Assembly (NCBI RefSeq): GCF_022808675.1
Contig: NZ_JAKZKV010000001.1
Span: 620,001-684,000, forward strand
DNA from: Parabacteroides sp. FAFU027
GTDB taxonomy: Bacteria > Bacteroidota > Bacteroidia > Bacteroidales > UBA7332
Length of the DNA stretch: 64,000 nt
Reading direction: 5' to 3'
A program made the translations under genes and the position numbers. Below, piece after piece: positions 8,097 to 36,100 of the stretch (position 1 is the first letter of the stretch; every line of letters starts with the position of its first letter). The notes under the pieces are model-generated. The model was not told the DNA's origin, ran no database searches, and saw only the letters and a program-made list of their open reading frames with translations.

Positions 8097-9104
8097 ATGC
8101 GTGTGCTGATATCCAACCGTTCCATAGTTCCCGTTTGCCTGGTGGTGTTGCTGATTGTAGCAACGTTATCGTTGTGCCTGGGACGCTATCCAGTATCGCT
8201 GAAGGATTTATCTGCTTTTATTTTCCAGACCGGGACATTTGACGAAAACCTGAAAATCATCCTGCTCAATATCCGCATACCCCGGATACTGGGAGCCATT
8301 GCGCTGGGTGGTTCGCTGGCATTGGCGGGAGCATCCTATCAGGGAATGTTTCGTAATCCGATGGTAAGCCCCGATATACTGGGTGTTTCGTCAGGAGCGG
8401 GATTCGGCGCGGCTTTGGGCATCCTGCTCGCGATGCCGGCTGTGGGTATCCAGCTGTTTTCCTTTATGGGTGGGATGTCGGCGGTATTGATTGCAATGGC
8501 AGTGAGCAGGCTCATTGGCAATAAACACGAACCGATACTGATACTGGTACTCTCGGGCATCATTATCTCCTCTTTTTTCGGAGCGATGCTTTCCCTGATA
8601 AAATATGTGGCTGACCCCGACAATAAACTCCCTGCCATCACCTACTGGCTGATGGGCAGTCTTTCAGGCATCCAACTCAACGACATCAAGACCGTATTTC
8701 CGATCCTCACACTGGGCATTGTCCCTTTGCTGCTTATCAGTTGGCGGGTCAATGTACTCTCTTTCGGTGAAGATGAAGCCCGGTCACTCGGGATAAATAC
8801 CGGCAGGCTCAGGATGCTGATTATCGTTTGCTCCTCGCTGATTTCGGCCAGCATGATTTCGATTTGCGGGATTGTGGGATGGGTCGGACTCATCATCCCC
8901 CATTTGGCACGGATGATAGCTGGGCCGGATTACCGGGTCTTATTGCCGGTTTCGTTTCTGACCGGAGGGATATTTATGCTGGTGGTGGATACTATTTCAA
9001 GGTCGCTCACTCCCATTGAGATACCGATTGGAATACTGACATCAGTGCTTGGCGCTCCATTTTTCATCTATTTCCTGAAAAAATCATCACACAAAAACTG
9101 GTAG
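8097..9104 (+). CDS. FecCD-family ABC importer permease
   Basis: The 335-residue protein is an integral membrane protein with about ten membrane segments, the size usual for the FecCD/BtuC family. Hallmarks are RIPRILGAIALGGSLALAG (residues 60-80), QGMFRNPMVSPDILGVSSGAG near 85, and the C-terminal GIVGWVGLIIPHLAR that couples to the ATPase. The family moves iron siderophores, haem, cobalamin and, in Haemophilus MolBC-type systems, molybdate. The ATPase gene starts 5 bases after its stop. The matching periplasmic protein is encoded at 17488-18489 and the TonB receptor at 14083-16128. Confidence 0.9.
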   Translation: MRVLISNRSIVPVCLVVLLIVATLSLCLGRYPVSLKDLSAFIFQTGTFDENLKIILLNIRIPRILGAIALGGSLALAGASYQGMFRNPMVSPDILGVSSGAGFGAALGILLAMPAVGIQLFSFMGGMSAVLIAMAVSRLIGNKHEPILILVLSGIIISSFFGAMLSLIKYVADPDNKLPAITYWLMGSLSGIQLNDIKTVFPILTLGIVPLLLISWRVNVLSFGEDEARSLGINTGRLRMLIIVCSSLISASMISICGIVGWVGLIIPHLARMIAGPDYRVLLPVSFLTGGIFMLVVDTISRSLTPIEIPIGILTSVLGAPFFIYFLKKSSHKNW

Positions 9105-9109
9105 TGCTT

Positions 9110-9916
9110 ATGAAGACGAATCACTCCAATATGGGAACGCCGGGGCGCATGGAATTTTCCCAAACGCATTTCGGTTACGATGGACAACCGGTGCTGAAGG
9201 ATATCAGCTTCAGCGTGTCGTGTGGCGAAATCATTTGCATTCTCGGGCCGAACGGTGTGGGCAAAACGACCCTGTTTAAGACCATCCTGGGATTTATTCC
9301 TCCTATCAGCGGGGAAATCCGGCTCAACGGGAAAAACATCGCTGACTTTTCGCCCAATGAATTTGCCAAAATGGTGGCTTATGTACCGCAGAACCATACG
9401 ATACCCTTTCCCTATAAAGTGAAAGATGTCGTATTGTTTGGCCGGACTGTACACTTGGGCATGTTCCAGACACCGGGCCGAAAGGACAGGCGCATTGCCC
9501 TGGAGGCGATGGAGCTGCTGGATATCCGGCATCTGGCAGACCGGTCGTTTTCCGAATTGAGCGGTGGCGAGCGACAGATGGTGCTTTTCGCACGGGCACT
9601 GGCACAGGAGGCGCGATTCATCATACTTGATGAGCCGACTTCCAACCTCGACTATGGAAACCAAGTGCGGGTGATTCGCAAAGTTAACGAACTGAAGAAG
9701 CAGTCCGTGGGTATCCTGATGGCCACCCATTCGCCCGACCACGCCTTTATGGTGGCGTCGAAAGTCATTCTGATCAACAACGGAAGGCTATATAAATCGG
9801 GCGTACCCGACAGTACCCTCACACCGGAAAATCTGAAGAAGATATACGGCATCGAGGTTTCCGTTATGGAGACCTGCGATTCCGGAAAGGTGTGTGTGCC
9901 TCTTATTCACAACTAA
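9110..9916 (+). CDS. FecE/BtuD-type ABC importer ATPase
   Basis: A 268-residue protein. ATG 9110 is preferred to GTG 9104, which overlaps the permease stop. It shows Walker A GPNGVGKTT (about 46-54), a Q-loop in YVPQN, the signature LSGGE (about 150-154), Walker B FIILDEPTS (about 172-180) and the switch His in MATHSPDH (about 206). It pairs with the preceding permease to drive import across the inner membrane. The translational coupling to the permease and the GTPase gene 15 bases downstream indicate one operon. Confidence 0.9.
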   Translation: MKTNHSNMGTPGRMEFSQTHFGYDGQPVLKDISFSVSCGEIICILGPNGVGKTTLFKTILGFIPPISGEIRLNGKNIADFSPNEFAKMVAYVPQNHTIPFPYKVKDVVLFGRTVHLGMFQTPGRKDRRIALEAMELLDIRHLADRSFSELSGGERQMVLFARALAQEARFIILDEPTSNLDYGNQVRVIRKVNELKKQSVGILMATHSPDHAFMVASKVILINNGRLYKSGVPDSTLTPENLKKIYGIEVSVMETCDSGKVCVPLIHN

Positions 9917-9931
9917 TAAAACCAGGAAATT

Positions 9932-10615
9932 ATGAAACTTATCACCGTTTCCGGACCACCGTCATCAGGGAAAACCTCCGTGCTGCTCAATGCCGTAAAA
10001 GCATTGCAGGCGGAAGGTAAAAAGGTGGGCGTGGTCAAGTTTGACTGCCTCTATACCGACGATGACAAACTCTATGAAGCCCTCGGCATCCCCGTTCGGG
10101 TGGGACTTTCGGGTAACCTTTGTCCCGACCACTACTTTGTGAGCAACATCGACGACTGCATTGAATGGGGCAAAGACCTCAACCTCGACTTCCTGCTTTC
10201 GGAGAGTGCCGGACTGTGCAACCGCTGTTCGCCCCACGCCAAAAACGTGCAGGCCGTCTGCGTCATCGACAACCTAATGGGCATCAACACCCCCAAGAAG
10301 ATCGGTCCGATGCTGAAATTTGCCGACATCATCGTCATCACCAAAGGCGATATCGTGTCACAGGCCGAGCGAGAGGTATTTGCCTTCAAAGTGCGCCAGT
10401 CCAATGCCAAAGCCAAAATCATGTATGTCAATGGCATCACGGGACAGGGTGCATACGAACTAACGACGCTATTTCATTCGGCTCAAAACACCCATACCCT
10501 CAATGGAGGCTCCCTGCGTTTCTCCATGCCTGCCGCGCTTTGCTCCTATTGCCTGGGAGAGACTAAAATCGGCAAGGATTACCAGATGGGAAATGTCAGG
10601 AAGATCAAGATTTAA
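9932..10615 (+). CDS. HypB/UreG/CobW-like GTPase with two CxxC pairs
   Basis: The 227-residue protein has an N-terminal P-loop GPPSSGKTS (8-16), a switch-like KFDCLYTDDD region, ESAG at 91-94 where the family has a Walker B/G3 element, and TKGD at 137-140 in the place of NKxD. These features put it in the SIMIBI G3E group that inserts nickel, cobalt or other metals. Unlike textbook HypB or UreG it has C96-x2-C99 followed by SPH, and a second pair C204-x2-C207 near the C terminus; four cysteines could hold a metal or an Fe-S cluster. It has no signal peptide. Its place between an importer ATPase and a second ATPase suggests GTP-driven delivery of the imported metal. The partner protein is unknown. 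Confidence 0.75.
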   Translation: MKLITVSGPPSSGKTSVLLNAVKALQAEGKKVGVVKFDCLYTDDDKLYEALGIPVRVGLSGNLCPDHYFVSNIDDCIEWGKDLNLDFLLSESAGLCNRCSPHAKNVQAVCVIDNLMGINTPKKIGPMLKFADIIVITKGDIVSQAEREVFAFKVRQSNAKAKIMYVNGITGQGAYELTTLFHSAQNTHTLNGGSLRFSMPAALCSYCLGETKIGKDYQMGNVRKIKI

Positions 10616-10639
10616 TGCAATAACGACTTCCGTTACCTG

Positions 10640-10933
10640 GAGGACGGTCAGCTAAACTTAGAGGATGACTGGCGAAACCTAGAGGACTATCAGCGAAACC
10701 TAGAGGACGATCAGCGAAAGCTAGAGGACGACCAGCGAAACCTAGAGGACGATCAGCGAAACCTAGAGGACGACCAGCGAAACCTAGAGGACGATCAGCG
10801 AAACCTAGAGAACGGTCAGCGAAACCTAGAGGATGACTAGCGAAACCTAGAGGACGGTCAGCGAAACCTAGAGGACGGTCAGCGAAACCTAGAGAACGAC
10901 CAGCGAAACCTAGAGAGTCATCAGCGAAACCCA
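10640..10933. repeat. Tandem array of fourteen 21-bp units
   Basis: Fourteen consecutive 21-base units with core CAGCGAAACCTAGAGGAC fill almost the whole gap between the GTPase and the second ATPase. Inner units vary by one to three bases; the first and last vary more. Read on the plus strand in the GTPase frame, directly after its stop, the units spell the heptad EDDQRNL until a TAG in unit 10. Because 21 is a multiple of three, several frames on both strands stay open, so openness is not evidence of coding. Confidence 0.9.
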
Positions 10934-10976
10934 TTTATTCAATCATTCATTCCCTCAACCCCTCAATCCCTACCCT

Positions 10977-11963
10977 ATGGAACTATTAGAAAAGGAAATT
11001 GGGCTTATATCCGAAGAAACGCCATACGTTGCTGAATTCTTCAGGACATATCGGATCACTCCGGCAAATCCTAAAATCAGTCTGGGCGAATACCTCAACA
11101 CACAGGATGACGAATATTTTGAAGACATCGGGATGGACAAGGAGCAGTTAATTGACAATCTGGCCGGCTTTATCGAAATGGGCCAGGAGAAAGAGGAAAG
11201 CAAAGTCAACTCCATCACTATCATTGGTGGTCACGACAAAAGCGGAAATGCCGAAGAGCTGACCCTCACACTCGATAACGGCACCATCACCAGCATTGTC
11301 GGGCCGACAGGTTCAGGCAAAAGCCGCCTGCTGGCCGACATCGAGTGGATGGCACAGGGTGATACCCCTACCTCCCGCAAGATTCTGGTCAACGGTTCAG
11401 TCCCTGACCCTGAACTACGCTTTTCCCTGGAACACAAACTGGTGGCACAGCTATCACAAAATATGAACTTCGTGATTGATACCACCGTCGAGGAGTTTAT
11501 CACCATGCATGCCGAGAGCCGCATGATCCTGAACCCTACAGAGATTGTGGCAGAAATCATTCGCCAGGCGAACCTGTTGGCGGGAGAATCCTTTACCGGT
11601 GAAACACCTGTCACGGCACTGTCCGGCGGACAATCCCGCGCGCTGATGATTGCCGACACCGCGTTTCTGAGCAGCTCTCCGGTAGTGTTGATCGATGAAA
11701 TTGAGAACGCTGGAATCGACCGTAAAAAGGCGCTCAGTCTTTTAGTCAAAAAAGAAAAGATCGTGCTGATGGCCACCCACGACCCCATTTTGGCATTGAT
11801 GGCCGGACAACGACTCGTCATCAAAAACGGGGGTATTCACAAAATTATTCCGACATCGACTGCCGAAAAAGCTAATCTTTCTGCACTGGAAGAGCTCGAT
11901 AATAAAATACTGGCCTTACGTAATAGTTTGCGAAATGGAGAAGTGATTGAAGGAGAATTCTGA
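10977..11963 (+). CDS. Soluble ABC-type ATPase with ScdA-like N-terminal domain
   Basis: The 328-residue protein has two parts. Residues 1-70 resemble the ScdA_N/DUF542 helical domain (TPYVAEFFRTYRI, then ISLGEYL, then a helix ending DNLAGFIE) but lack its Cys-Cys pair. Residues 78-310 form an ABC domain: Walker A GPTGSGKS (109-116), signature LSGGQ (215-219), Walker B VVLIDE (about 237-242) and MATHDP. The D-loop region reads ENAGIDR rather than the usual SALD. There is no membrane partner of its own beside it, so it may energise a cytosolic step instead of transport. It is the last gene of operon 1, and a terminator follows. Confidence 0.8.
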   Translation: MELLEKEIGLISEETPYVAEFFRTYRITPANPKISLGEYLNTQDDEYFEDIGMDKEQLIDNLAGFIEMGQEKEESKVNSITIIGGHDKSGNAEELTLTLDNGTITSIVGPTGSGKSRLLADIEWMAQGDTPTSRKILVNGSVPDPELRFSLEHKLVAQLSQNMNFVIDTTVEEFITMHAESRMILNPTEIVAEIIRQANLLAGESFTGETPVTALSGGQSRALMIADTAFLSSSPVVLIDEIENAGIDRKKALSLLVKKEKIVLMATHDPILALMAGQRLVIKNGGIHKIIPTSTAEKANLSALEELDNKILALRNSLRNGEVIEGEF

Positions 11964-11996
11964 TCCACCTCCACCTTGATTCAATAGTATAAGTTA

Positions 11997-12037
11997 ATCC
12001 CGAAGTTTGTCTCCATACAGACTTCGGGATTTATTTT
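11997..12037 (+). terminator. Rho-independent terminator of operon 1
   Basis: ATCCCGAAGT pairs with ACTTCGGGAT around an inner short stem and is followed by TTATTTTTCT. It closes the unit that began at 8097. Confidence 0.85.
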
Positions 12038-12185
12038 TCTCCTGCCTGATATATAAATTCGTGTCAGACAGAGCCATTAATCGTTATACATTCTTGTAGA
12101 TTTCGTCCACCAACCCTGACCTCGATGTAGGACACTGACTCCACACTAAAACCGCTATTGACTGATATACTACGATTTACATTTA

Positions 12186-12258
12186 TGGCACGATATTTAT
12201 ATTAGTAAAAGCAGAATAGCGAATCACCGCACCTACCGTTATTCATCTTTATGAATAA
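12186..12258 (+). promoter_or_regulatory. Candidate operator/promoter of operon 2 of the metal locus
   Basis: TGGCACGATATTTAT (12186-12200) is followed 51 bases later by CGTTATTCAT, which begins a perfect 8-bp inverted repeat TTATTCAT-CTTT-ATGAATAA (12239-12258). The layout copies that at 8007-8080 upstream of operon 1. The rest of the 329-base gap at 11964-12292 holds only the terminator of operon 1. Confidence 0.5.
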
Positions 12259-12292
12259 TAAAGTATTCACTTTTTAAAGACCACATAGTAAA

Positions 12293-12994
12293 ATGACTCA
12301 GACACGACTAAATAAATATTTCATTTTCCTGCTGTGTACTGCGGGTTTGGCATTTGAATCCGGATGCAAAAAAGTACTGGACGAAAACTCCTTCTTCACC
12401 GACCAGATACCTTCGACTGGAATCCTGGAAACCAAACCACAGAACTATCCCGCCGGATTCGGGGTGGACTTCGAAAGCGACTCCATCGTGTCGCTCGACG
12501 AATACCCCAACTTCAAATACGACCTGAAGATGCTGGCGTGGCGCATACAGGACCCGGTAACCAGTTCTTATGGCGGTCGTCCAGTGGTATTTCTCTGGGG
12601 AGACGAATCTACACCGACCAAGGCGATCGCGCTCAATGTCTCTGAATTTGCCGGGATTGGATTGGGGGCTGAGGGTTTCGCTGAGTTTAATTATGTGACC
12701 AAGCTGATGCAGGATAGCGTAAAGGCCGATAAGGTATTTTCCATAAATCCAAACGACTCGACAGCCTATCCCTGGAAAGACGGATTTATCCAGATGAGTG
12801 AAGCGCTACTGCTGGGAGCCTATCAGGTACTGGTCATTGGCGACAAAGTGGTTCGCCTTCCTGAAAGCCAATCCCCGGTGTGGCTCATCCGCACCTCTGA
12901 TGGAAATTACTTCAAGTGGCAACACATCGAGCGTCAGGGCGGCGGCCACGTCCCCATCCGATGGTATCGCTTTAAACCGTATGAGATGGACTAA
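12293..12994 (+). CDS. Lipoprotein of the metal locus, weakly HmuY-like
   Basis: The 233-residue product starts with a lipoprotein signal (LAFESGC, lipidated Cys 25). The remainder is beta-rich and acidic. Its end, with YFKWQHIERQGGG then IRWYRF, resembles the C-terminal strands of HmuY-type ligand-binding lipoproteins, but the similarity is short and the haem-ligand histidines cannot be placed. As the first gene of operon 2, ahead of the TonB receptor, it is likely a surface or periplasmic accessory that helps capture the cargo. Confidence 0.68.
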   Translation: MTQTRLNKYFIFLLCTAGLAFESGCKKVLDENSFFTDQIPSTGILETKPQNYPAGFGVDFESDSIVSLDEYPNFKYDLKMLAWRIQDPVTSSYGGRPVVFLWGDESTPTKAIALNVSEFAGIGLGAEGFAEFNYVTKLMQDSVKADKVFSINPNDSTAYPWKDGFIQMSEALLLGAYQVLVIGDKVVRLPESQSPVWLIRTSDGNYFKWQHIERQGGGHVPIRWYRFKPYEMD

Positions 12995-13037
12995 CAATAA
13001 TAATACAATAGGTTTCACACAATTAAATTTTAAGGTT

Positions 13038-14027
13038 ATGAGAAAAAGAATTATTACACTCAGTTTGCTTTCTGCTATTAGCTTTGGTTCCATCATCAAA
13101 GCGAGCGAATCGGTATCCATCCTTTGCTCAAAGGACAACACCATTATCCAATCGGCAACCGGTTCATTAAGTAACGCTCTTTATTCAATCACCGCAGGAA
13201 GAACCAATCAGGATGCAGGAGCGGCAGTTACAAGTATCCGTCGGGCATTGGTCTATTTTGACGTTGCCAATCATGTTCCGGTCAATGCGACCATTGACAG
13301 TGTACGTTTAAGTATGTACTTCAGCCGGACTTCCGGTGTGGGGACTAACGTTGATTTGCATCGCGTTTTAAAAGACTGGGGCGAAGGGACATCCATGCAG
13401 GGTGGTGGTCAAGGTGCAACGGCCACGCAAAACGACGTGACCTGGCTCTATACCTTTAACAATGTGGCCTCTCCTACCAGCAGTCCGGCTTGGACAACTC
13501 CGGGTGGGGATTTCGACCCGACAGTTAGTGCAACTATCTATGCGGGAACAGGCTTAACAAGCACCGGAGCTGATGCCTATGGACTGAAATACTTTGTCTC
13601 AACCACGATGACATCAGAAGTACAAAACTGGTTAAATACACCATCATCAAACTTCGGATGGGTTTTACAAGGGGATGAAACAAAAGCTCAGACTGCCAAA
13701 CAATTCCTCTCCCGCGAAACAGGTGATGCGACAACCAGCCCGCTTTTAAAGGTCTATTATACTGTATCCGGTGGAATTCCAATGGGAATAAATTCCGGAT
13801 TAGCAGTAAAATTCACAACCTATCCTAACCCTGCGTCAGACTATGTTACCGTAAGTTTTACTAAAGCTTCTTCGGAAAAAGTATTTATCTACAACACCTG
13901 CGGTACTCTGGTTAAAACAGTTCAGGCAAATAACGAAGAAAAACTGAACATCGAATTGACAGATATGAAACCAGGCATCTATCTCATCAAAGCCGGAAGC
14001 TATACTTCGAAACTCATGGTGAAATAA
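13038..14027 (+). CDS. Secreted DNRLRE-like protein with T9SS sorting domain
   Basis: ATG 13038 opens a signal peptide (MRKRIITLSLLSAISFGSII). A longer in-frame extension upstream overlaps the lipoprotein gene and is rejected. The 329-residue product has a jelly-roll-like domain: RALVYFDVANHVPVNATID, then LHRVLKDWGEGT, then LNTPSSNFGWVLQG, as in DNRLRE modules of secreted Bacteroidetes proteins. Residues from about 255 (KFTTYPNPASDYVTVSF to KLMVK) form a T9SS sorting domain. A T9SS cargo inside a TonB/ABC metal operon is unusual; it lies 43 bases after the lipoprotein gene and 55 bases before the receptor gene and is probably cotranscribed. Confidence 0.78.
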   Translation: MRKRIITLSLLSAISFGSIIKASESVSILCSKDNTIIQSATGSLSNALYSITAGRTNQDAGAAVTSIRRALVYFDVANHVPVNATIDSVRLSMYFSRTSGVGTNVDLHRVLKDWGEGTSMQGGGQGATATQNDVTWLYTFNNVASPTSSPAWTTPGGDFDPTVSATIYAGTGLTSTGADAYGLKYFVSTTMTSEVQNWLNTPSSNFGWVLQGDETKAQTAKQFLSRETGDATTSPLLKVYYTVSGGIPMGINSGLAVKFTTYPNPASDYVTVSFTKASSEKVFIYNTCGTLVKTVQANNEEKLNIELTDMKPGIYLIKAGSYTSKLMVK

Positions 14028-14082
14028 TTTCTTTTGTTCATCATTGCCGCCTGACATTCGATGACGGCTCAAATTTGCAACT

Positions 14083-16128
14083 ATGATTAAGCGGGTTAAA
14101 TACATCATTCCTTTTCTTTTTCCACTCTTCTCACTTCAGGTATCTGCTCTCCCGGCAGATACGCTGAAAGTGAAGAGCGTGACCAAAAACAAAGAAGTCA
14201 GGCTTCAGGAAGTCAGCGTCAACGGCTTCAGACAAGAGAAGCTGAAAGCTAAAAATGCGGTGATTCTCACCCCTAAAGATATTTCGGCAGTCGCTTCAGA
14301 GAATTTCATCAACGTGGTGGACCAATTACCGGGCATTGTAAAGGTAAACGAAACGACCTTTCCTCTCCTGATCCGGGGCATGTACGGCAGCCGCATCCAT
14401 GTGGAGAAAAACGGGATGGTGAAGACCGGCATCGACCAATCGGGGTATAAACTCGAAGATATCAACCCGAACGATGTGTCGGATGTACAACTTCTGCACG
14501 GAGCACGTAGCATTGCGTACGGTAACGGAAGTGTCGGCGGTGTTTTGCTGATTAATGAAAAGCTGTCGTTTAAGAAAAAGGGATTTAACGGAAATGCAAA
14601 ACTCGCTTACGGGAGCAATAACAACGAACAGACGGCTGATACCCGCTTCTGTTATGCGAACTCATCAAACGTCTTCACCGTGGGTGGTCGATATACTTTA
14701 GCCGATAACTTCCATTATCCCGACCAGGTGGAGGCCCTGAATTCAGCGTACTCCTATAAAAACCTCTCCACTAAGCTGGCCCATAAATTTAAAGGTCAAA
14801 GTATCATCGAATGGGACAACAACTATTACAGCGGACAGCGGGAAAAGCCGTTGGGATTTCAAAACAACCCGTATGACTACCGCACCTTTTTTGACCGGTA
14901 CAATATCGAATCATCGCTCAAGTTTCGCACCACTATCGCTAACGGCACGTCTGTCAATACCAACCTTTGGTACAACGGGCTCAATACTGACCAACGCCAG
15001 GACCAGGTGAATGCGGGAACCAAACTGCTTGCTATCCGTGAGATGATTTATTCCTTCAAGCAAGCGGGAGGATTTAAGGTAAATGCTTCCAAGAAAATCG
15101 CCCGCTATTGGGTAGGTGAAGCCGGTGCCGATGCGTACACAGACTACCTGTGTCAGGATCACGGTACGGATGATATTAAGCACAATACGTCGAGCCTTTA
15201 CAAATATTATTCTGAGCAACAACAAACCATTGGCGGCATTTACGGCATTGCCGAATACGAGAAGGAGAAACATCAAATCGGGTTAAGTCTGCGCGGTGAT
15301 TACGGCAACCTGAAGAAAGACAGCATCCACTCCAAATCGTACTACAATGTGACCGGAGGCATTGACTGGAGCTATAAATTCCGCCCGTGGCTGCAAAACG
15401 ACCTGAGCCTGAGCCGCCACTTCCGTTTCCCAATTCCGATGGAGGCTATCGGTGTTTTCTACGGAGGGCGAGGAACTTTTGTCGGGAATCCTGATATTGA
15501 ACCGGAGACCTGTTACAACATCGAGTGGGTGGTAAAAGGCGAACTCAAACACCTCATGTACACGCTCAACGGCTGGGCATCGTTTTTCCACAACCGCATT
15601 TCGGAATATGAGCTGTTTACCAACAAATACACCTATATCAATATCGCCAAAGCGCGTCTTTATGGCTTCGACGGTTCGTTGACTGCATTTACCGGAGATA
15701 AAAAAAGAGCAGGGAAAGCCGAGCTGACCATCAATGCAACTTACGCTTATGGCGATGATGTGACCAACGACGGTTATCTGGGCAAAGGCTCTCCACTCGA
15801 AGGTATTCCTCCGGGACGAATCCGCAACAAGTTGCAATATTACAAAAGCTGGAAAAATGTGGAGCCGTCGGTGTTTATCATCTTCAGCTACATCGCCTCG
15901 TACGACCGCCTGCCCGAATATTCTGTCACCAAAACCTGGGGACAGAATGCCCGGAACGCCTATCCACTTTGGGATGCAGGATTGAATATTCATTTACCCA
16001 AAGCGTTGAATGGTACCACTTTCAGTCTTTTAGTCAACAATATGCTGGATACAAGCTACCTGCCTTATGGCGGTTACCTGAGAGGCATCGGACGAAATTT
16101 CAAAACAACCGTCAATGTGCGGTTTTAA
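14083..16128 (+). CDS. TonB-dependent outer-membrane receptor
   Basis: 681 residues with a signal peptide (1-22), a TonB-box-like stretch (VRLQEVSVNGF, about 40-50), a plug domain (FINVVDQLPGIVKVNE, then LLIRGMYGSRIHVEKNGM, then VQLLHGARSIAYGNGSVGGVL) and a 22-strand-type barrel ending in the aromatic FKTTVNVRF. It lacks the SusC-like carboxypeptidase-regulatory N-terminal domain, so it belongs to the classical siderophore, cobalamin or metal receptor type rather than the glycan type. Its genetic partners are the periplasmic binding protein (17488) and the FecCD/FecE importer (8097-9916). Confidence 0.9.
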   Translation: MIKRVKYIIPFLFPLFSLQVSALPADTLKVKSVTKNKEVRLQEVSVNGFRQEKLKAKNAVILTPKDISAVASENFINVVDQLPGIVKVNETTFPLLIRGMYGSRIHVEKNGMVKTGIDQSGYKLEDINPNDVSDVQLLHGARSIAYGNGSVGGVLLINEKLSFKKKGFNGNAKLAYGSNNNEQTADTRFCYANSSNVFTVGGRYTLADNFHYPDQVEALNSAYSYKNLSTKLAHKFKGQSIIEWDNNYYSGQREKPLGFQNNPYDYRTFFDRYNIESSLKFRTTIANGTSVNTNLWYNGLNTDQRQDQVNAGTKLLAIREMIYSFKQAGGFKVNASKKIARYWVGEAGADAYTDYLCQDHGTDDIKHNTSSLYKYYSEQQQTIGGIYGIAEYEKEKHQIGLSLRGDYGNLKKDSIHSKSYYNVTGGIDWSYKFRPWLQNDLSLSRHFRFPIPMEAIGVFYGGRGTFVGNPDIEPETCYNIEWVVKGELKHLMYTLNGWASFFHNRISEYELFTNKYTYINIAKARLYGFDGSLTAFTGDKKRAGKAELTINATYAYGDDVTNDGYLGKGSPLEGIPPGRIRNKLQYYKSWKNVEPSVFIIFSYIASYDRLPEYSVTKTWGQNARNAYPLWDAGLNIHLPKALNGTTFSLLVNNMLDTSYLPYGGYLRGIGRNFKTTVNVRF

Positions 16129-16143
16129 GAAGCCCCCTTCCGG

Positions 16144-16162
16144 CCTCCCCCCAAAGGGGAGG
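16144..16162. repeat. G/C-rich intergenic hairpin
   Basis: CCTCCCC and GGGGAGG flank a CCAAA loop between the receptor gene and the next gene. It is probably a dispersed palindrome or a partial transcription attenuator; no T run follows. Confidence 0.45.
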
Positions 16163-16194
16163 AGTAACGATAACATCAACAATATCAGGTTAAA

Positions 16195-17415
16195 ATGCAA
16201 AAAACAATGGAAGCAAACAGCTCAACAATTACAGTAAACACCCCTCTCCGGAAACTCCTGGAATCCTATAAAGGAGCTTACCGGGTGCTGCTTTGTGCCG
16301 GAATTAAACTTTCTCCGCTCACGATAAGTTACAATGAAACGTTGGGGAAATACCTGACAGAAAACAACCGGGAAGAGATACTTTCCGACCTCAATCACAT
16401 CGTCCGCCGTGAACATCAGGATTTCGACCAGCTGGAAAATATCCGGCACGAGTTGATTCAACCCGGTAAAGTGAACATGGCCGGTTTTGCTGACTTTACC
16501 TGGCACGAGGCTTTTATTGAGGAAATGGAAAAATTCGCCAATACAGAGAAAATCCCTCTCAACCATCAGTTTTTCCAGAAGAATAATAAGAAAGCGTTCC
16601 AGTTTTACCTTGCCCAATGCGAGAATCCGGACGAACTACCGGATATACTGGTAGGTAAAGGATTCAGTTCGCTCATGACCCGCCGCTTTGTGGACAGGTT
16701 CGTAAAACCGGGATATTTCGATACACCGTTGAAAGTAAATGTACATGAGCTTTGGAACAATTCAGGGCTTTACGATACGACAGAACAATACCACGCTTTC
16801 GGTGCTGAGGAACTGGTGATTCTCCACGACAAATCGAAGGAGGAAAATCTACCAATACCAACCCGCTGGAGCGACCTGCTTAGTCCGGTATATGCCGATG
16901 CCGTAACGCAAATGGGGAAACCCCAGCGCGACCATTTCGGGTCCAATATGCTCTTCTACCTGCACCAGAAATACGGTGAACAGGGTATCCGTAATTATGC
17001 CCGCTCGGTGAAGTTTAAATGGCATTTCTCCAAAATCATCAAAGACATCGGAAAGAATCATCCCGAGTCATCGCCTTTCAATGTGGTGCAGCGATACACC
17101 ACCCTCTTTGTCCGCAGTAATGCAGATGTGGAGGTGCTTTCTCCCAAAGACGGCAATCCGGTCAGTACCTTCTTCCTGTTGGTCAAAAAAGGGAGTAACG
17201 AGCAGGTTTTGAAAATCGCCCGGCATTTCTTTTCCAAAGAGATTGCCGGATTTCTGGAAAATGCGGGTGCCATATCAGCGCATCCCGATTCGGAAACTGC
17301 GGCTAATGCCAATATTCGCTGGCTCGGCTGGGAGACGATTAAAAACTCATCCCTCCCCTACCAGAAAGATTATTTCAGCGAAATTGCCTTCGAAGTATTT
17401 GAAAATAAGGATTGA
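16195..17415 (+). CDS. Cytosolic substrate-binding-like protein with ScdA-like N-terminal domain
   Basis: The 406-residue product (402 if ATG 16207 is used) has no signal peptide. Residues 13-70 (TPLRKLLESYKGAYRVLLCAGI, then TLGKYL, then EEILSDLN) resemble the ScdA_N/DUF1858 helical domain without its Cys-Cys pair, as in the ATPase at 10977. The rest resembles a type-2 periplasmic binding fold: LPDILVGKGFSSLMTRRFVDRF, then WSDLLSPVYADAV, then VLSPKDGNPVSTFFLLVKKG. Proteins of this look are often labelled ABC substrate-binding, yet this one should stay in the cytosol. With the GTPase and the second ATPase it may form a cytosolic metal or cofactor-handling module; that is inference from co-localisation. 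Confidence 0.68.
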   Translation: MQKTMEANSSTITVNTPLRKLLESYKGAYRVLLCAGIKLSPLTISYNETLGKYLTENNREEILSDLNHIVRREHQDFDQLENIRHELIQPGKVNMAGFADFTWHEAFIEEMEKFANTEKIPLNHQFFQKNNKKAFQFYLAQCENPDELPDILVGKGFSSLMTRRFVDRFVKPGYFDTPLKVNVHELWNNSGLYDTTEQYHAFGAEELVILHDKSKEENLPIPTRWSDLLSPVYADAVTQMGKPQRDHFGSNMLFYLHQKYGEQGIRNYARSVKFKWHFSKIIKDIGKNHPESSPFNVVQRYTTLFVRSNADVEVLSPKDGNPVSTFFLLVKKGSNEQVLKIARHFFSKEIAGFLENAGAISAHPDSETAANANIRWLGWETIKNSSLPYQKDYFSEIAFEVFENKD

Positions 17416-17434
17416 CGACTTCCAACCGACTTCC

Positions 17435-17467
17435 AAACCTCCAAGGTTTTCAAAACCTTGGAGGTTT
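17435..17467. repeat. REP-like perfect palindrome
   Basis: A 16-bp arm, AAACCTCCAAGGTTTT, a single C, and the exact complement. It sits between the cytosolic binding-like gene and the FecB-like gene and belongs to the dispersed AACCT-N-AGGT family seen at least seven more times in the window. Confidence 0.85.
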
Positions 17468-17487
17468 AGAATCCAAATCAACGAATT

Positions 17488-18489
17488 ATGAAAACAATGC
17501 TATCCCTCCTCCTGCTGCTCGCATCGCAGCTGATATTTGCCCAAACCCGAGTAATCACCGACATGGCTGGTCGAAAAGTAACGATACCAGTGAAAATCAA
17601 CCGTATCCTTCCCCACGATGAAAAGACCTGCCTGATGCTTTTCCCCTGCTCAAGCGGAAAACTCATCAGCCGTGGCCTCAATCCTGACAATACGGACATG
17701 AAGTACATCCACGAAAGTTACCGCAAGCTTCCCATTACCGACATCAAAAATCCGGAAGCTGTGATGAGTGCAGCCCCTGATATTATTATCGCTGGCTGCT
17801 TCGTTCCCGAAGATTATTCCCGTTATGAAAAGCTCAGCAAACAAACCAATATTCCATTGGTAATCATCGACCTGAACATATTGAAAATGGATAATTCTTA
17901 CCGTTTTCTCGGTTCTCTGTTAGGAGAAAATAAGGAAACCAAAGCCTGTGCCGATTTCCTCGACAACTTCTATAAAGAACTATCTCAGTTACAAAAAACA
18001 AATGCTAAAAACAATGCCTCCGCTTACCTTGCAGTAGGTAGCGATGGGCTGATGACTGCACCCAGCGGAAGTAAGCACGCCCAACTCTTTGACTTGTTAG
18101 GCATCCGCAATGCTGCCGAAACGGAAATCGAAGCCCGTGGTTATGCGACCGTTTCATTGGAACAGATCATGCTGTGGAAACCCGATTACATCTTCACGGT
18201 GGACAAAGGCGGTGACGATCCTTACACCGAAATATACGCTTCCCCGCTGTGGAAGAAGATTCCTGCTGTACAGAAAAAACATGTCTTCCACATTCCGGAA
18301 GAGCCATACAACTGGTTTGGCAATCCGCCCTCCATCAACCGCATACCGGGACTGATTCTGCTTTCGGAGTTTTTTTACCGGCAATCACAAAAGAAAGCGC
18401 ATGAGCAGATCAAAGCTTTCTACCGCCTTTTTTACAAATATCCATTGAGCGAGACAGAGTTGGCAAGGCTTTTGCAGTCTAAAAAGTGA
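17488..18489 (+). CDS. FecB/BtuF-type periplasmic metal-chelate binding protein
   Basis: 333 residues beginning with a signal peptide (MKTMLSLLLLLASQLIFAQ). The class III binding fold is clear: TRVITDMAGRKVTIPVKINRI, then PEAVMSAAPDIIIAG (about 92-106), a long connecting helix, then MLWKPDYIFTVD and EPYNWFGNPPSINRIPG near 275. The last motif is common in binding proteins for iron chelates and for MolA-like oxyanion systems. It should deliver the cargo released by the TonB receptor to the permease encoded at 8097. Confidence 0.87.
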   Translation: MKTMLSLLLLLASQLIFAQTRVITDMAGRKVTIPVKINRILPHDEKTCLMLFPCSSGKLISRGLNPDNTDMKYIHESYRKLPITDIKNPEAVMSAAPDIIIAGCFVPEDYSRYEKLSKQTNIPLVIIDLNILKMDNSYRFLGSLLGENKETKACADFLDNFYKELSQLQKTNAKNNASAYLAVGSDGLMTAPSGSKHAQLFDLLGIRNAAETEIEARGYATVSLEQIMLWKPDYIFTVDKGGDDPYTEIYASPLWKKIPAVQKKHVFHIPEEPYNWFGNPPSINRIPGLILLSEFFYRQSQKKAHEQIKAFYRLFYKYPLSETELARLLQSKK

Positions 18490-18530
18490 ACCCGCATACC
18501 AATATGCGTCTCACATCAACTCTTACGAAT

Positions 18531-18743
18531 ATGGAAGAATACATCGAAAAGGTAACCCTCATCAAGTTGAGTTGTTTTGAAGAGAAAACATTCTATATTT
18601 TTCAAAATGCAGCCGGTGAATTCCGAACCCTTGAAACAGACAAATTTGAGAATGACGCCCTACAACCGGGCGATGTCCTTCAGGCCCGTATGCGAAAGAA
18701 AGGGTGTGCAGGCCGGGAAATAACAGAGTTAATCCTTTCCTGA
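18531..18743 (+). CDS. 70-residue protein closing operon 2
   Basis: ATG 18531 (MEEYIEKVTLIKLSCFEEK) is preferred; a GTG at 18486 overlaps the previous stop but would add a featureless leader. The short beta-rich sequence with LQPGDVLQARMRKKG is compatible with a small OB or beta-barrel fold similar in size to molbindin, but I recognise no family. It lies 41 bases after the FecB-like gene and is likely cotranscribed. Confidence 0.6.
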   Translation: MEEYIEKVTLIKLSCFEEKTFYIFQNAAGEFRTLETDKFENDALQPGDVLQARMRKKGCAGREITELILS

Positions 18744-18913
18744 CAGATCCGGAAACGGATATCGATGAAGTTATTTTCGCTTTTGCAAATTATTAACAAC
18801 CATCGACCAGACTCATTTTTCTCTGAATTAAACTGTCAAACCCACTCATAGCCGGTATTGCTTTTCAGATATTTATGTGAACCAATCTCCGACAGACTAT
18901 TTCACTCAATAAA

Positions 18914-18953
18914 ATGAATAACGCCATTTTACTACCAAAAAGTCGTCATTCAT
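18914..18953 (+). promoter_or_regulatory. Paired half-sites of the metal-locus motif upstream of molbindin
   Basis: ATGAATAACG (18914-18923, reverse complement of CGTTATTCAT) faces CGTCATTCAT (18944-18953), a nine-of-ten match, across 20 bases. The same 10-mer marks both operons of the locus, although there the arms are only 4 bases apart. Confidence 0.45.
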
Positions 18954-18989
18954 CTGTTTTTACAACAAACCTGTCGTGATTATTTGCGT

Positions 18990-19019
18990 TATATTTGACA
19001 AAACAACTTATTTGTCAAA
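18990..19019 (+). promoter_or_regulatory. Molbindin promoter with overlapping inverted repeat
   Basis: TATATTTG at 18990-18997 is a perfect -7 box. It overlaps a perfect 9-bp inverted repeat TTTGACAAA/TTTGTCAAA (18994-19002 and 19011-19019, 8-base spacer) that would cover the transcription start, a typical repressor position. Confidence 0.6.
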
Positions 19020-19039
19020 CAATATCAAAACAAACAATT

Positions 19040-19246
19040 ATGGAACTTAGCGCAAGAAACAAAATCAAAGGAACCATCGAAGAAATCGTATTAGGTGCTG
19101 TCATGGCCAAAGTAAAAGTAAACATTGGTGGCGGTAACACCGTCAGCTCTCTCATCTCGGTAGAAAGCGTGGATGACCTGAAGCTAAAAGTAGGTGATGA
19201 AGTGTATGCTATCGTGAAATCTACGGAAGTAATGATTGGCAAATAA
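19040..19246 (+). CDS. Molbindin (Mop/TOBE domain), molybdate- or tungstate-binding
   Basis: A single TOBE domain of 68 residues (MELSARNKIKGTIEEIVLGAVMAKVKVNIGG and following; ISVESVDDL; LKVGDEVYAIVKSTEVMI). ATG 19040 gives the usual molbindin length. The SARNKIKGTI start and KSTEVMI end are diagnostic. Members of the family form oligomers that bind molybdate or tungstate in the cytosol for storage or homeostasis. It has its own promoter and terminator. Its position right after the importer locus and the shared upstream motif are the main hint that the cargo of that locus could be Mo or W. Confidence 0.9.
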   Translation: MELSARNKIKGTIEEIVLGAVMAKVKVNIGGGNTVSSLISVESVDDLKLKVGDEVYAIVKSTEVMIGK

Positions 19247-19332: not shown

Positions 19333-19405
19333 GAAAAAAGAAAAGGTTGTCATCACGACAACCTCAACCCTTTATTAACCTTAAATCTAATACCATGAAA
19401 AACAC
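19333..19405 (-). ncRNA. Small RNA, probable Bacteroidales-1-type, copy A
   Basis: On the minus strand TATCTTTG (19417-19410) is a perfect -7 box. It is followed by about 40 bases nearly identical to the second copy, then by the hairpin AGGTTGTC-ATCAC-GACAACCT written in plus orientation (19344-19364), which on the minus strand ends in TTTTCTTTTTT, a rho-independent terminator. The promoter, short body, and terminator layout matches the published description of the Bacteroidales-1 RNA motif. The identification rests on recall of that description, not on a model search. On the plus strand the element contains an ATG and six further codons, which are probably fortuitous. Confidence 0.65.
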
Positions 19406-20752: not shown

Positions 20753-20792
20753 TTTTTTTGCCAACCAACCTTATAGGATAAGAAACCTATAG

Positions 20793-20864
20793 AAAAAAGA
20801 AAAGGTTGTCATCACGACAACCTCAACCCTTTATTAACCTTAAATCTAATACCATGAAAAACAC
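20793..20864 (-). ncRNA. Small RNA, probable Bacteroidales-1-type, copy B
   Basis: A near-identical second copy of the element at 19333-19405, in the same minus orientation: -7 box TATCTTTG at 20876-20869, the same body, and the same hairpin and T-rich tail. It lies about 40 bases behind the deacetylase stop, so it is convergent with that gene and its terminator may serve as the border. The -33 element is not convincing in either copy. Confidence 0.65.
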
Positions 20865-33128: not shown

Positions 33129-36100
33129 ATGAAAAATTCTATTCACTGGAAAACGAAAGGGACGTGTGGGTCGCTTTTGTTGCACATGCTGCTCCTTGTG
33201 GTGGTAACTACGTGGAGTGGAAATGTTTATGGACAAGACTCAATAGCTGTTGCCCATAATGATTCTGAAGCCTATGTACAGACAGATCTTCCGGACTATG
33301 CACCGGGATCGACCGCCCATATCGACGGTGAATACTGGACGCCCGGTGAAAAGGTGTACCTGGTGGTAACTCACTTATCACCACTCCCTGTACCCGATGC
33401 CACAGGTGTTTCTCCTAATCCTTATGAAGTATGGACGGTTATTGCCGATGAAAAGGGCGAAATTCATACTACCTGGTATGTGAATCAGTTTGAAGCTGGC
33501 GCCCAGCTCAGTCTGGAGGCTTACACTGAGACGGGGTATCATTATACGGTATTTTTTACGGATGCAACTAATGACTTAATTTCTTATGCCAGTGATTGCA
33601 ACACTTCAAAAACCTCTTTTTGTAGTGGTGAAACAGTTTGTGTTAAAGCAACATTTACTAGCGGTAATAATCACATTGAATGGTATAATCCTTCAAATGG
33701 TTTAGTTAATCGAACACCTGCAACAGGAGATCAAAATGGAGATATTTCAAGCTCTTACGCACCATCTGGAGCTGGAACTTGGACAATAAAATTAGTCAAG
33801 AGCAACGGTAGCATACCAAAAACAATAACCATAAATATAAATTCTTCAACTGCAATAAGCTCCTCCCCATCTTCTAAGTCGATAACTTACGGAGATGCTT
33901 CAACTTTTACAGTTTCAGCATCTGGAACTGGAACATTAATCTATCAATGGAAGGAAAATACCGGTAGTGGATTTACAAAAATTACTGATGGCGGAGTCTA
34001 TTCTGGTGCAACTACAGCAACTTTAACCCTCACTAAACCACCAGTTGCGATGAGTGCATATCAATATCAGTGTGTGGTAACAAGCGACTGTGGTTCGGCA
34101 ACTAGTAATGCGGCGAGTTTGACAGTAAATAAGAAAGATATTACAGGAAGCTTTACAGCCAGCAACAAAACCTATGACGGTGGAATTGCAGCAACAGTTA
34201 TCTCACGTTCTCTGACTGGTGTTATCTCTCCAGATGTCGTTTCTCTGACTGGTGGCACAGCTGCCTTTAGCGATAAGAATGTCGCTACAAGCAAAACTGT
34301 CACCCTGACAGGTGCAACCCTGACCGGTACTGACGCAAGCAATTACAGTCTGACTTCGGTAAACACAACTACAGCAGACATCAACAAATTAGGTTTGGTT
34401 GGTTCATTCCTGGCCGACGATAAGACCTATGATGGGAACAACAGTGCTACGGTAACTACAGGTAGCTATTCAGTAGCGACCAAAATAGGAACCGAAGATG
34501 TTAACATCACCGGAGGTACTGCAACCTTTGCTGATAAAAACTGGGGCGTTGACAAAGTCGTAACCTTAACTGGTGCAACCCTGACCGGTACTGACGCAAG
34601 CAATTACAGTCTGACTTCGGTAAACACAACTACAGCAGACATCAACAAATTAGGTTTGGTTGGTTCATTCCTGGCCGACGATAAGACCTATGATGGGAAC
34701 AACAGTGCTACGGTAACTACAGGTAGCTATTCAGTAGCGACCAAAATAGGAACCGAAGATGTTAACATCACCGGAGGTACTGCAACCTTTGCTGATAAAA
34801 ACTGGGGCGTTGACAAAGTCGTAACCTTAACTGGTGCAACCCTGACCGGTACTGACGCAAGCAATTACAGTCTGACTTCGGTAAACACAACGACTGCCAA
34901 CATAACACAACGTGATCTCACTGTATCAGCAACAGCCGATGATAAAACCTACGATGGTAATACAACAGTAGTTGTACATTTAACAACGGACAAAGTTTCA
35001 GGCGATAATGTTGAAGCAAGCTATACTTCTGCGTCTTTTGATGATCCTGATGGTGTTGGTCCATTAGACGGTTCAGAAGTAGGCACTAACAAAGCTGTAA
35101 CTGTATATGGAATTTCTATAAGCGGGGCTATTGCCACGAACTATAAATTGCTTAATACAACAGCAACTGCCACTGCAAAAATTACACAAGCGACAACCAC
35201 AACATTACTTAGTACAAGTGCCGAAAGGGTAAGGTATATGGATTATTTAACTCTGACTGCCCAGATTAAACCTCTAAATACTGGTAGTCCATTAACAGGT
35301 GAAGTTAAATTCATGATTGGTGATAAAGAATATGGCAGTGCAAGTGTTGTACCTATCCCAGGAGTTACTGATGGTTCAGTACAGGCTATGATGATTGTCC
35401 AAGTTAAAAACTTACCTGCAACTTATGATGTCAAATGTAATTTCATTTCATCAAATCCAAATTACTCAGGAAGTGAAGTTGGTAGTCCAAAACTAACGGT
35501 TGATCCAAGAACTGCAACTCCATACAATGCAACTGGTTTTTATACCGGTGATGGTTTTGCTTGGACTACCGGAACAAATACCAGTACTGCAACATTAACG
35601 ATGACAGCTGTGATTCAAGATACTTGTTCACTTAAAGGTAAAGGTGACGTTCGTGGTGCTAAGGTTTCATTCTACATTGTCAATGGTACCACTTATACAG
35701 CTATACCAAGTGCGCAGAATTTACCAGTTGGACTGATTGATGTAACAGATGGAAGTGTTGGTGCTGCTAGTGCAATTGTTCAGTTGAATATCGGTTCAGC
35801 AAATGCTGCCAGTTTCCAAATTGCGATTAAAGTAACCGGGGCATATACAAATAATCCGGGTGACGCATTATCACAATCAATTGTTACGGTTTCAAAACCT
35901 GTAACTGGTGGATATATTACTGGTGGTAGTAGTATGCTAAACTCTAACTCTTCGGGTTATATTAGCGGAGCTAAAGGATTGAATACTGATTATGAATTTG
36001 ATATTCAATATACAAAATCCGGTACGAATCCGAAAGGAAAGGTAACAATATTAGTTCGTAGTTATTATACGAAAGATGGCATTCTTGATTCAAAAATGCA

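Follow-up and report, generated by a model that had tools for sequence, protein, structure and literature searches.

Introduction

NifQ is the molybdenum (Mo) donor for the iron-molybdenum cofactor (FeMo-co) of nitrogenase in Proteobacteria, HypB and UreG are G3E GTPases of nickel insertion, and ferric chelates are a common cargo of FecBCD and TonB systems. To our knowledge, the route by which Mo reaches the nitrogenase cofactor in anaerobes without NifQ is not settled. HesA of Paenibacillus provides a precedent for a role between Mo uptake and the nitrogenase cofactor (PMC6361004), and MolBC-A of Haemophilus influenzae, a low-affinity importer that acts alongside ModBC, has been shown experimentally to import molybdate in vivo (PMC4031551). 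The locus described here occupies positions 8097-19246 of a stretch of 64,000 nucleotides (the window) from Parabacteroides sp. FAFU027 (NZ_JAKZKV010000001.1, 620,001-684,000). It encodes a FecB/FecCD/FecE-type importer, a TonB receptor and three soluble proteins, referred to below as the trio: a G3E GTPase, an ATP-binding cassette (ABC)-type ATPase and a cytosolic binding protein (16195-17415), named SBPc.

On balance we favour the reading that the two putative operons of this locus form an accessory Mo scavenging and handling system for nitrogenase, in which Mo would be the cargo and would be handled and handed over in the cytosol. A description of the trio was not found in full-text literature searches of partial coverage, and both the combination and its link to nitrogenase appear to be undescribed in the searchable papers, while the parts belong to known superfamilies. 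With its molybdate-type importer coupled to a pair of GTPase and ATPase, the system offers a concrete candidate for the Mo route in such anaerobes, one that is highly conserved and open to genetic tests.

Conservation of the trio and association with nitrogenase

In a survey of 296 Bacteroidota/Chlorobi genomes, orthologues of the ATPase, 65-78 % identical and some of them fragmentary, were found in approximately 19 genomes besides the host, and SBPc adjoined nearly all of them. A wider scan, with the ATPase alignment as query and each species represented by one genome, gave more than 514 relatives, of which the best 80 loci were taken; the trio occurs across anaerobic bacteria, and these loci span Chlorobi, Desulfuromonadota, Clostridia, Deferribacterota, Acidobacteriota, Bacteroidales, Proteobacteria, one methanogen and others. 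SBPc, GTPase and ATPase occurred together in approximately 67 of the 80 loci, across many phyla and in most cases in that order, and identity to the window proteins in other phyla reached 79 % for the GTPase and approximately 72-73 % for the ATPase, far above chance. By this genomic record the trio is a conserved operon and a real unit. In several Clostridium genomes the GTPase and ATPase are a single protein of approximately 510 residues, to the first half of which the window GTPase aligns with 67 % identity and to the second half the ATPase with 59 %; the fusion is direct evidence for a joint function of the two proteins.

A maximum-likelihood tree of 77 ATPases separated 37 sequences (clade A) from 40 (clade B, which includes that of the window) with support of 98/94. 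The neighbours of the 40 clade-B loci include Fec (20 loci), Mod (15), Nif (8) and methyltransferase genes (14), all of which were absent from the 37 clade-A loci. The latter instead have an 80-amino-acid CxxC protein (26 loci), Hcp (10) or YgbA_NO (6), none of which was present in any clade-B locus. Representative Mod, Mop and Nif neighbours were verified with curated models. The Mod-type neighbours of clade B include ModABC, ModD and ModE and occur in independent lineages, and a single Mop protein or ModE lies inside further trio loci (L098, L113, L140, L079, L092). The methyltransferases that recur beside clade-B loci fall into three types without relation to each other, namely class I, tetrapyrrole-type and TrmO-like, and were seen in Chlorobi, Clostridium and Bacteroidales (loci L057, L079, L092, L098, L145, L214).

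In a mixed sample, 22 of the 24 genomes with clade B had nifH, scored above its curated cut-off, as did 10 of the 25 with clade A (Fisher p = 2e-4). In a separate sample of 185 Clostridiaceae, each of the 20 clade-B carriers whose locus was retrieved had nifH, against one of ten carriers of clade A and 36 of the 149 genomes that lack the trio (clade B against none, p = 2e-11). Among 168 genomes of the order Bacteroidales, 14 of them nifH-positive, both clade-B carriers had the gene and neither of the two clade-A carriers did. The GTPase gene lies 5-7 kb from nifH in eight Clostridium genomes. In Clostridium loci L214 and L212/L213 the genes directly adjoin Mo-type nifHI1I2DK(E) with AnfO, L212/L213 also carrying ModABC. 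The order in L214 is FecCD, FecE, FecB, two methyltransferases, the fused GTPase-ATPase, SBPc, FecB, SBPc, a helix-turn-helix/periplasmic-binding-protein (HTH/PBP) regulator and AnfO, followed by nifHI1I2DKE of the Mo type; its NifD scored 637 against a Mo-type cut-off of 654, with the V and Fe-only models far lower. The association of clade B with nitrogenase and Mo is strong.

The nif cluster of the host lies elsewhere in the genome (L161) and reads modABC-nifHI1I2DKENB-nifV, a complete Mo-nitrogenase with NifD above the Mo-type cut-off; neither AnfG nor a NifQ (PF04891) match was found in the host. Should the trio serve nitrogenase in this host, Mo and Fe would be the metals to consider. 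Trio carriers comprised 52 NifQ-less and 2 NifQ-bearing genomes (PF04891 in 2 of 54).

Two simpler rules were considered and rejected. A link to Fe-only nitrogenase does not hold as a rule, as five of nine genomes with AnfG have the trio, but approximately 15 of the 20 trio carriers there lack AnfG, as does the host. Nor is the trio an obligatory replacement of NifQ, most sampled NifQ-less diazotrophs being without it.

The trio of clade A adjoins Hcp, YgbA_NO or nitrate reductase genes in loci L089, L090, L097, L118, L128, L147 and L181, often with the 80-amino-acid CxxC protein, which is weakly HypA-like, and the N-terminus of clade-A SBPc matched TIGR03980, a domain associated with Hcp, below the threshold. 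By these neighbours clade A may be tied to nitrosative stress. In a distant group, clade C (approximately 210 bits), the ATPase lacks the N-terminal domain, and it and the GTPase are accompanied by a PF04060 Fe-S protein and a NifS-like cysteine desulfurase (471 bits against a cut-off of 531); an operon of this type, with related GTPase and ATPase, NifS-like desulfurase and PF04060 protein, occurs in Bacteroidales loci L166, L169, L173, L175 and L178. The partners of clade C and the Hcp and YgbA_NO genes of clade A suggest that the GTPase-ATPase family is a broader metal-centre machine, and the recurrence of the pair beside Hcp/NO genes and desulfurases may point to a larger class of such machinery that has no name as yet.

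Structure of the locus

Gene identities were assigned by family scans of the open reading frames (PF, TIGR and NF models, bits against cut-off). All genes have the same direction and form two blocks, 8097-11963 and 12293-18743, the second with the molbindin gene at 19040-19246:

8097..9104 (+), FecCD-type permease, MolB-like, PF01032 301 bits
9104..9916 (+), transport ATPase of the permease, FecE/MolC-like
9932..10615 (+), G3E GTPase of the trio, CPDH, CxRC and CSYC motifs, PF02492 43.9 bits, cut-off 20.7
10635..10931, minisatellite, 21-bp unit, 14 copies, between the GTPase and ATPase genes, probably not a gene
10977..11963 (+), soluble ABC-type ATPase of the trio, PF00005 54 bits, extra N-terminal domain of ~70 amino acids
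11996..12031 (+), strong terminator-like hairpin, 15 pairs, end of the first operon
12293..12994 (+), lipoprotein, no match in the family scan
13032..14027 (+), type IX secretion system (T9SS)-secreted DNRLRE protein, TIGR04183 and NF033679
14083..16128 (+), TonB-dependent receptor, plug domain PF07715
16195..17415 (+), SBPc, cytosolic binding protein of the trio, SBP_bac_6 149 bits, FbpA/FutA fold
17488..18489 (+), FecB-type periplasmic binding protein, MolA-like, PF01497 74 bits
18531..18743 (+), 70-amino-acid protein, no family match
19040..19246 (+), molbindin, single Mop domain, TIGR00638 77 bits, cut-off 55

The first-pass annotation of this DNA had described two operons in which a TonB receptor, FecB and FecCD/FecE are encoded together with a G3E GTPase, an extra ABC ATPase and a binding protein without signal peptide. 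The open reading frames lie where it had placed them and the family scans agree with its assignments, and the hairpin and the gap before 12293 fit its layout, being consistent with two transcription units. It had also taken the T9SS protein, the lipoprotein, the 70-residue protein and the molbindin to complete the locus; all four are present and the Mop domain was confirmed, with the start of molbindin at 19040 rather than at 18995, but the other three are outside the conserved core. For the 70-amino-acid protein neither the family scans nor comparison with trio loci gave a match or homologue. The lipoprotein had no significant homologue in the same comparison and none among solved structures in a simple sequence search; a lipoprotein is present in the same context in related Bacteroidales loci, one of them with a sub-threshold HmuY match (E 0.02). 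The DNRLRE protein has a homologue in the Paludibacter trio locus L098 (34 % over 250 amino acids), and the TonB receptor has homologues in trio loci L098, L145 and L105.

An open reading frame with a repetitive translation resembling that of the minisatellite lies between nifN and nifE of the same genome (L161:9260-9550). Just downstream of the molbindin gene, two equally scoring matches to the Bacteroidetes small RNA FopS (19333-19405 and 20792-20864, minus strand) stand on either side of a deacetylase-like gene. A perfect 261-bp tandem repeat was found at 34311-34891 of the window, within the gene of a 1204-amino-acid secreted protein.

The soluble proteins

The GTPase belongs to the G3E (CobW/HypB/UreG) family by its PF02492 score, P-loop and metal-type Cys and His residues. 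C64, H67, C96, C99, C110, C204 and C207 are invariant among 32 relatives and make up the CPDH, CxRC and CSYC motifs and the single C110. With the equivalog models it is neither HypB nor UreG proper (41.3 bits against a cut-off of 121.2, and 28.1 against 204.2, respectively).

The trio ATPase retains Walker A, the LSGGQ signature and the H-loop in 75-76 of 77 relatives. It does not appear to be the ATPase of an importer with its own permease, as the window permease already has FecE and a Fec or Mod permease is absent from the clade-A loci. Its AlphaFold model was poor (pLDDT 63, five close sequences) and was not used.

SBPc has no signal peptide, as the first-pass annotation had noted: a strongly hydrophobic N-terminus was seen in 2 of 69 relatives against 18 of 22 FecB controls by the same measure. 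A simple sequence search against solved structures gave no match, and it was the fold search that placed the protein, its AlphaFold model (pLDDT 90) having the FbpA/FutA ferric-binding fold with Z 21.9 to FbpA over 285 residues. Most SBPc have a PCP motif directly after the first strand, which the window copy has lost. A second SBPc of the host, with the Cys kept, is encoded outside the window, 18 kb upstream of the first operon and next after a TrmO-like gene (L056:9881-11575; SBPc 10403-11575), an arrangement that matches related Bacteroidales loci in which a TrmO-like protein is encoded inside the operon.

The importer and molybdenum

Among solved structures the permease and its transport ATPase are closest to MolB and MolC, which places both with importers of the MolBC-A type; this ranking covers the PDB only, and many FecCD families have no solved member. 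The best solved relative of the permease is HI1471/MolB with 228 bits (344 with a profile), followed by FhuB with 188, and the permease is up to 68 % identical to trio-linked permeases. HI1470/MolC is the only solved relative of the transport ATPase below 1e-40, and its Chlorobi partners are approximately 65 % identical. With a FecB profile from 19 homologues, MolA/HI_1472 (175 bits) was the best functionally characterised chain and the third among PDB chains, after two structures without a specific name. Molbindin was assigned to the Mop-domain family by its TIGR00638 score. The TonB receptor is not a haem receptor by TIGR01785, its best NCBIfam match being the hemin subfamily with 129 bits against a cut-off of 317, and no cobalamin or other metal riboswitch was found in the loci scanned.

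Proposed function and alternatives

In the system that we favour, the TonB receptor and the lipoprotein would capture Mo species, probably chelated or otherwise poorly taken up by ModABC, and the MolABC-like FecB/FecCD/FecE importer would carry them into the cytosol, where SBPc would bind them. The Cys-rich, HypB/UreG-like GTPase and the ABC-type ATPase would, as a pair, use nucleoside triphosphate (NTP) hydrolysis to load, convert or hand the metal on toward FeMo-co synthesis, and the Mop protein would buffer molybdate. The import and association steps are proposed from homology and gene neighbourhood, and the hand-over step by analogy with HypB/UreG-type GTPases. Thiomolybdate is a plausible candidate substrate, and sulfide turns molybdate into thiomolybdates in such habitats (PMC10390477).

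The first-pass annotation had read the locus as a metal uptake system linked to energised handling in the cytosol, with Mo suggested by the molbindin only, and had named gene neighbourhoods as the check. The neighbourhoods support this reading. The trio does co-occur as an operon, with FecBCD in 20 of 40 clade-B loci and Mod or Nif in others, and the carriers of this clade are nearly all nifH-positive; the energised handling is what we infer. The tie between trio and importer stands for clade B but not for the related clade A, which occurs in another context (Hcp, YgbA_NO) without Fec. Mo is retained as the suggested metal, now supported also by the ModABC, ModD and ModE neighbours and the MolBC-like importer subunits.

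Several observations weigh against a Mo system for nitrogenase. The p-values and counts of the association ignore kinship and phylogeny, and the trio is missing from 36 of 61 nifH-positive Clostridiaceae, 12 of 14 nifH-positive Bacteroidales and most Chlorobi. The nif operon of the host already carries ModABC, no Mo-transport neighbours of the related clades A and C were present in the loci seen, and the ferric-binding-protein fold of SBPc points to iron as readily as to molybdate. Since the trio is missing from many nifH-positive genomes, nitrogenase does not need it and the system would be accessory; being accessory, it probably lets the cell draw on more kinds of Mo source (chelated, thiolated or scarce) and is probably not the general Mo donor.

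The SBPc fold also favours an alternative that we regard as unlikely, namely that the cargo is iron, as a ferric chelate. The system would then import and traffic iron for nitrogenase, which needs much of it, and the Mod and Mop neighbours would reflect no more than shared nif regulation. FecBCD and TonB systems would suit such a cargo, and the host and the carriers are diazotrophs; however, the importer subunits are nearer to MolB/MolC than to FhuB, HmuU or BtuC, ModABC, ModD, ModE and Mop neighbours recur in independent lineages, and the conserved Cys and His/Lys of SBPc seem unlike the simple FbpA site. Haem or a corrinoid as cargo, the locus then serving haem or B12 uptake, is very improbable. 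The hemin subfamily match of the receptor, the weak HmuY match of a relative's lipoprotein and the tetrapyrrole methylase of some Chlorobi loci are in its favour, but the receptor and lipoprotein scores are below the cut-offs and riboswitches were not found in the loci scanned, on which grounds B12 or haem uptake was rejected; it would also leave the nitrogenase association unexplained.

An alternative that overlaps with Mo scavenging and differs from it in chemistry is that the GTPase-ATPase pair is a general machine for assembly or repair of metal-sulfur clusters, with clade-specific partners: SBPc and nitrogenase in clade B, SBPc with the 80-amino-acid CxxC protein, Hcp and YgbA_NO in clade A, and the NifS-like desulfurase in clade C. 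Its task in the window would be to make or mend a cluster that contains Mo or Fe, and not just to supply a metal ion. The frequencies of the clade-A partners, the sub-threshold TIGR03980 match and the desulfurase and PF04060 protein of clade C are consistent with such a machine, but a desulfurase or scaffold gene was not found in the clade-B loci examined and clade C is only distantly related, and we consider this, too, rather improbable. A wider form of the Mo scavenging that we favour can be put forward tentatively: the pair may be a machine of anaerobes, so far overlooked, that matures metalloclusters at the expense of NTP and has different adaptors in each clade; in the clade of the window it would feed Mo, possibly as a Mo-Fe-S species or thiomolybdate, to the nitrogenase cofactor without NifQ.

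Comparison with known systems

The importer of the window resembles MolBC-A (HI1470-1472, molybdate/tungstate) in its FecCD-fold permease, transport ATPase and FecB-type binding protein, and differs from it in the addition of a TonB receptor and the cytosolic trio. SBPc shares its fold with FbpA/FutA, but has no signal peptide, is only 8-14 % identical and has other conserved residues. Like HypB and UreG, the GTPase is of the G3E family, with CPDH at the position of the CPH of UreG and further metal-type Cys, and its clade-A partner weakly matches HypA; it differs from them in the extra CSYC, in an ABC ATPase as partner or fusion, in scores far below their cut-offs and in that no link to hydrogenase or urease was seen. 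The trio is found mostly in genomes without NifQ, yet is not universal among NifQ-less diazotrophs. In its candidate role, between Mo uptake and the nitrogenase cofactor, it would be comparable with NifQ of Proteobacteria and HesA of Paenibacillus, to which its proteins are unrelated.

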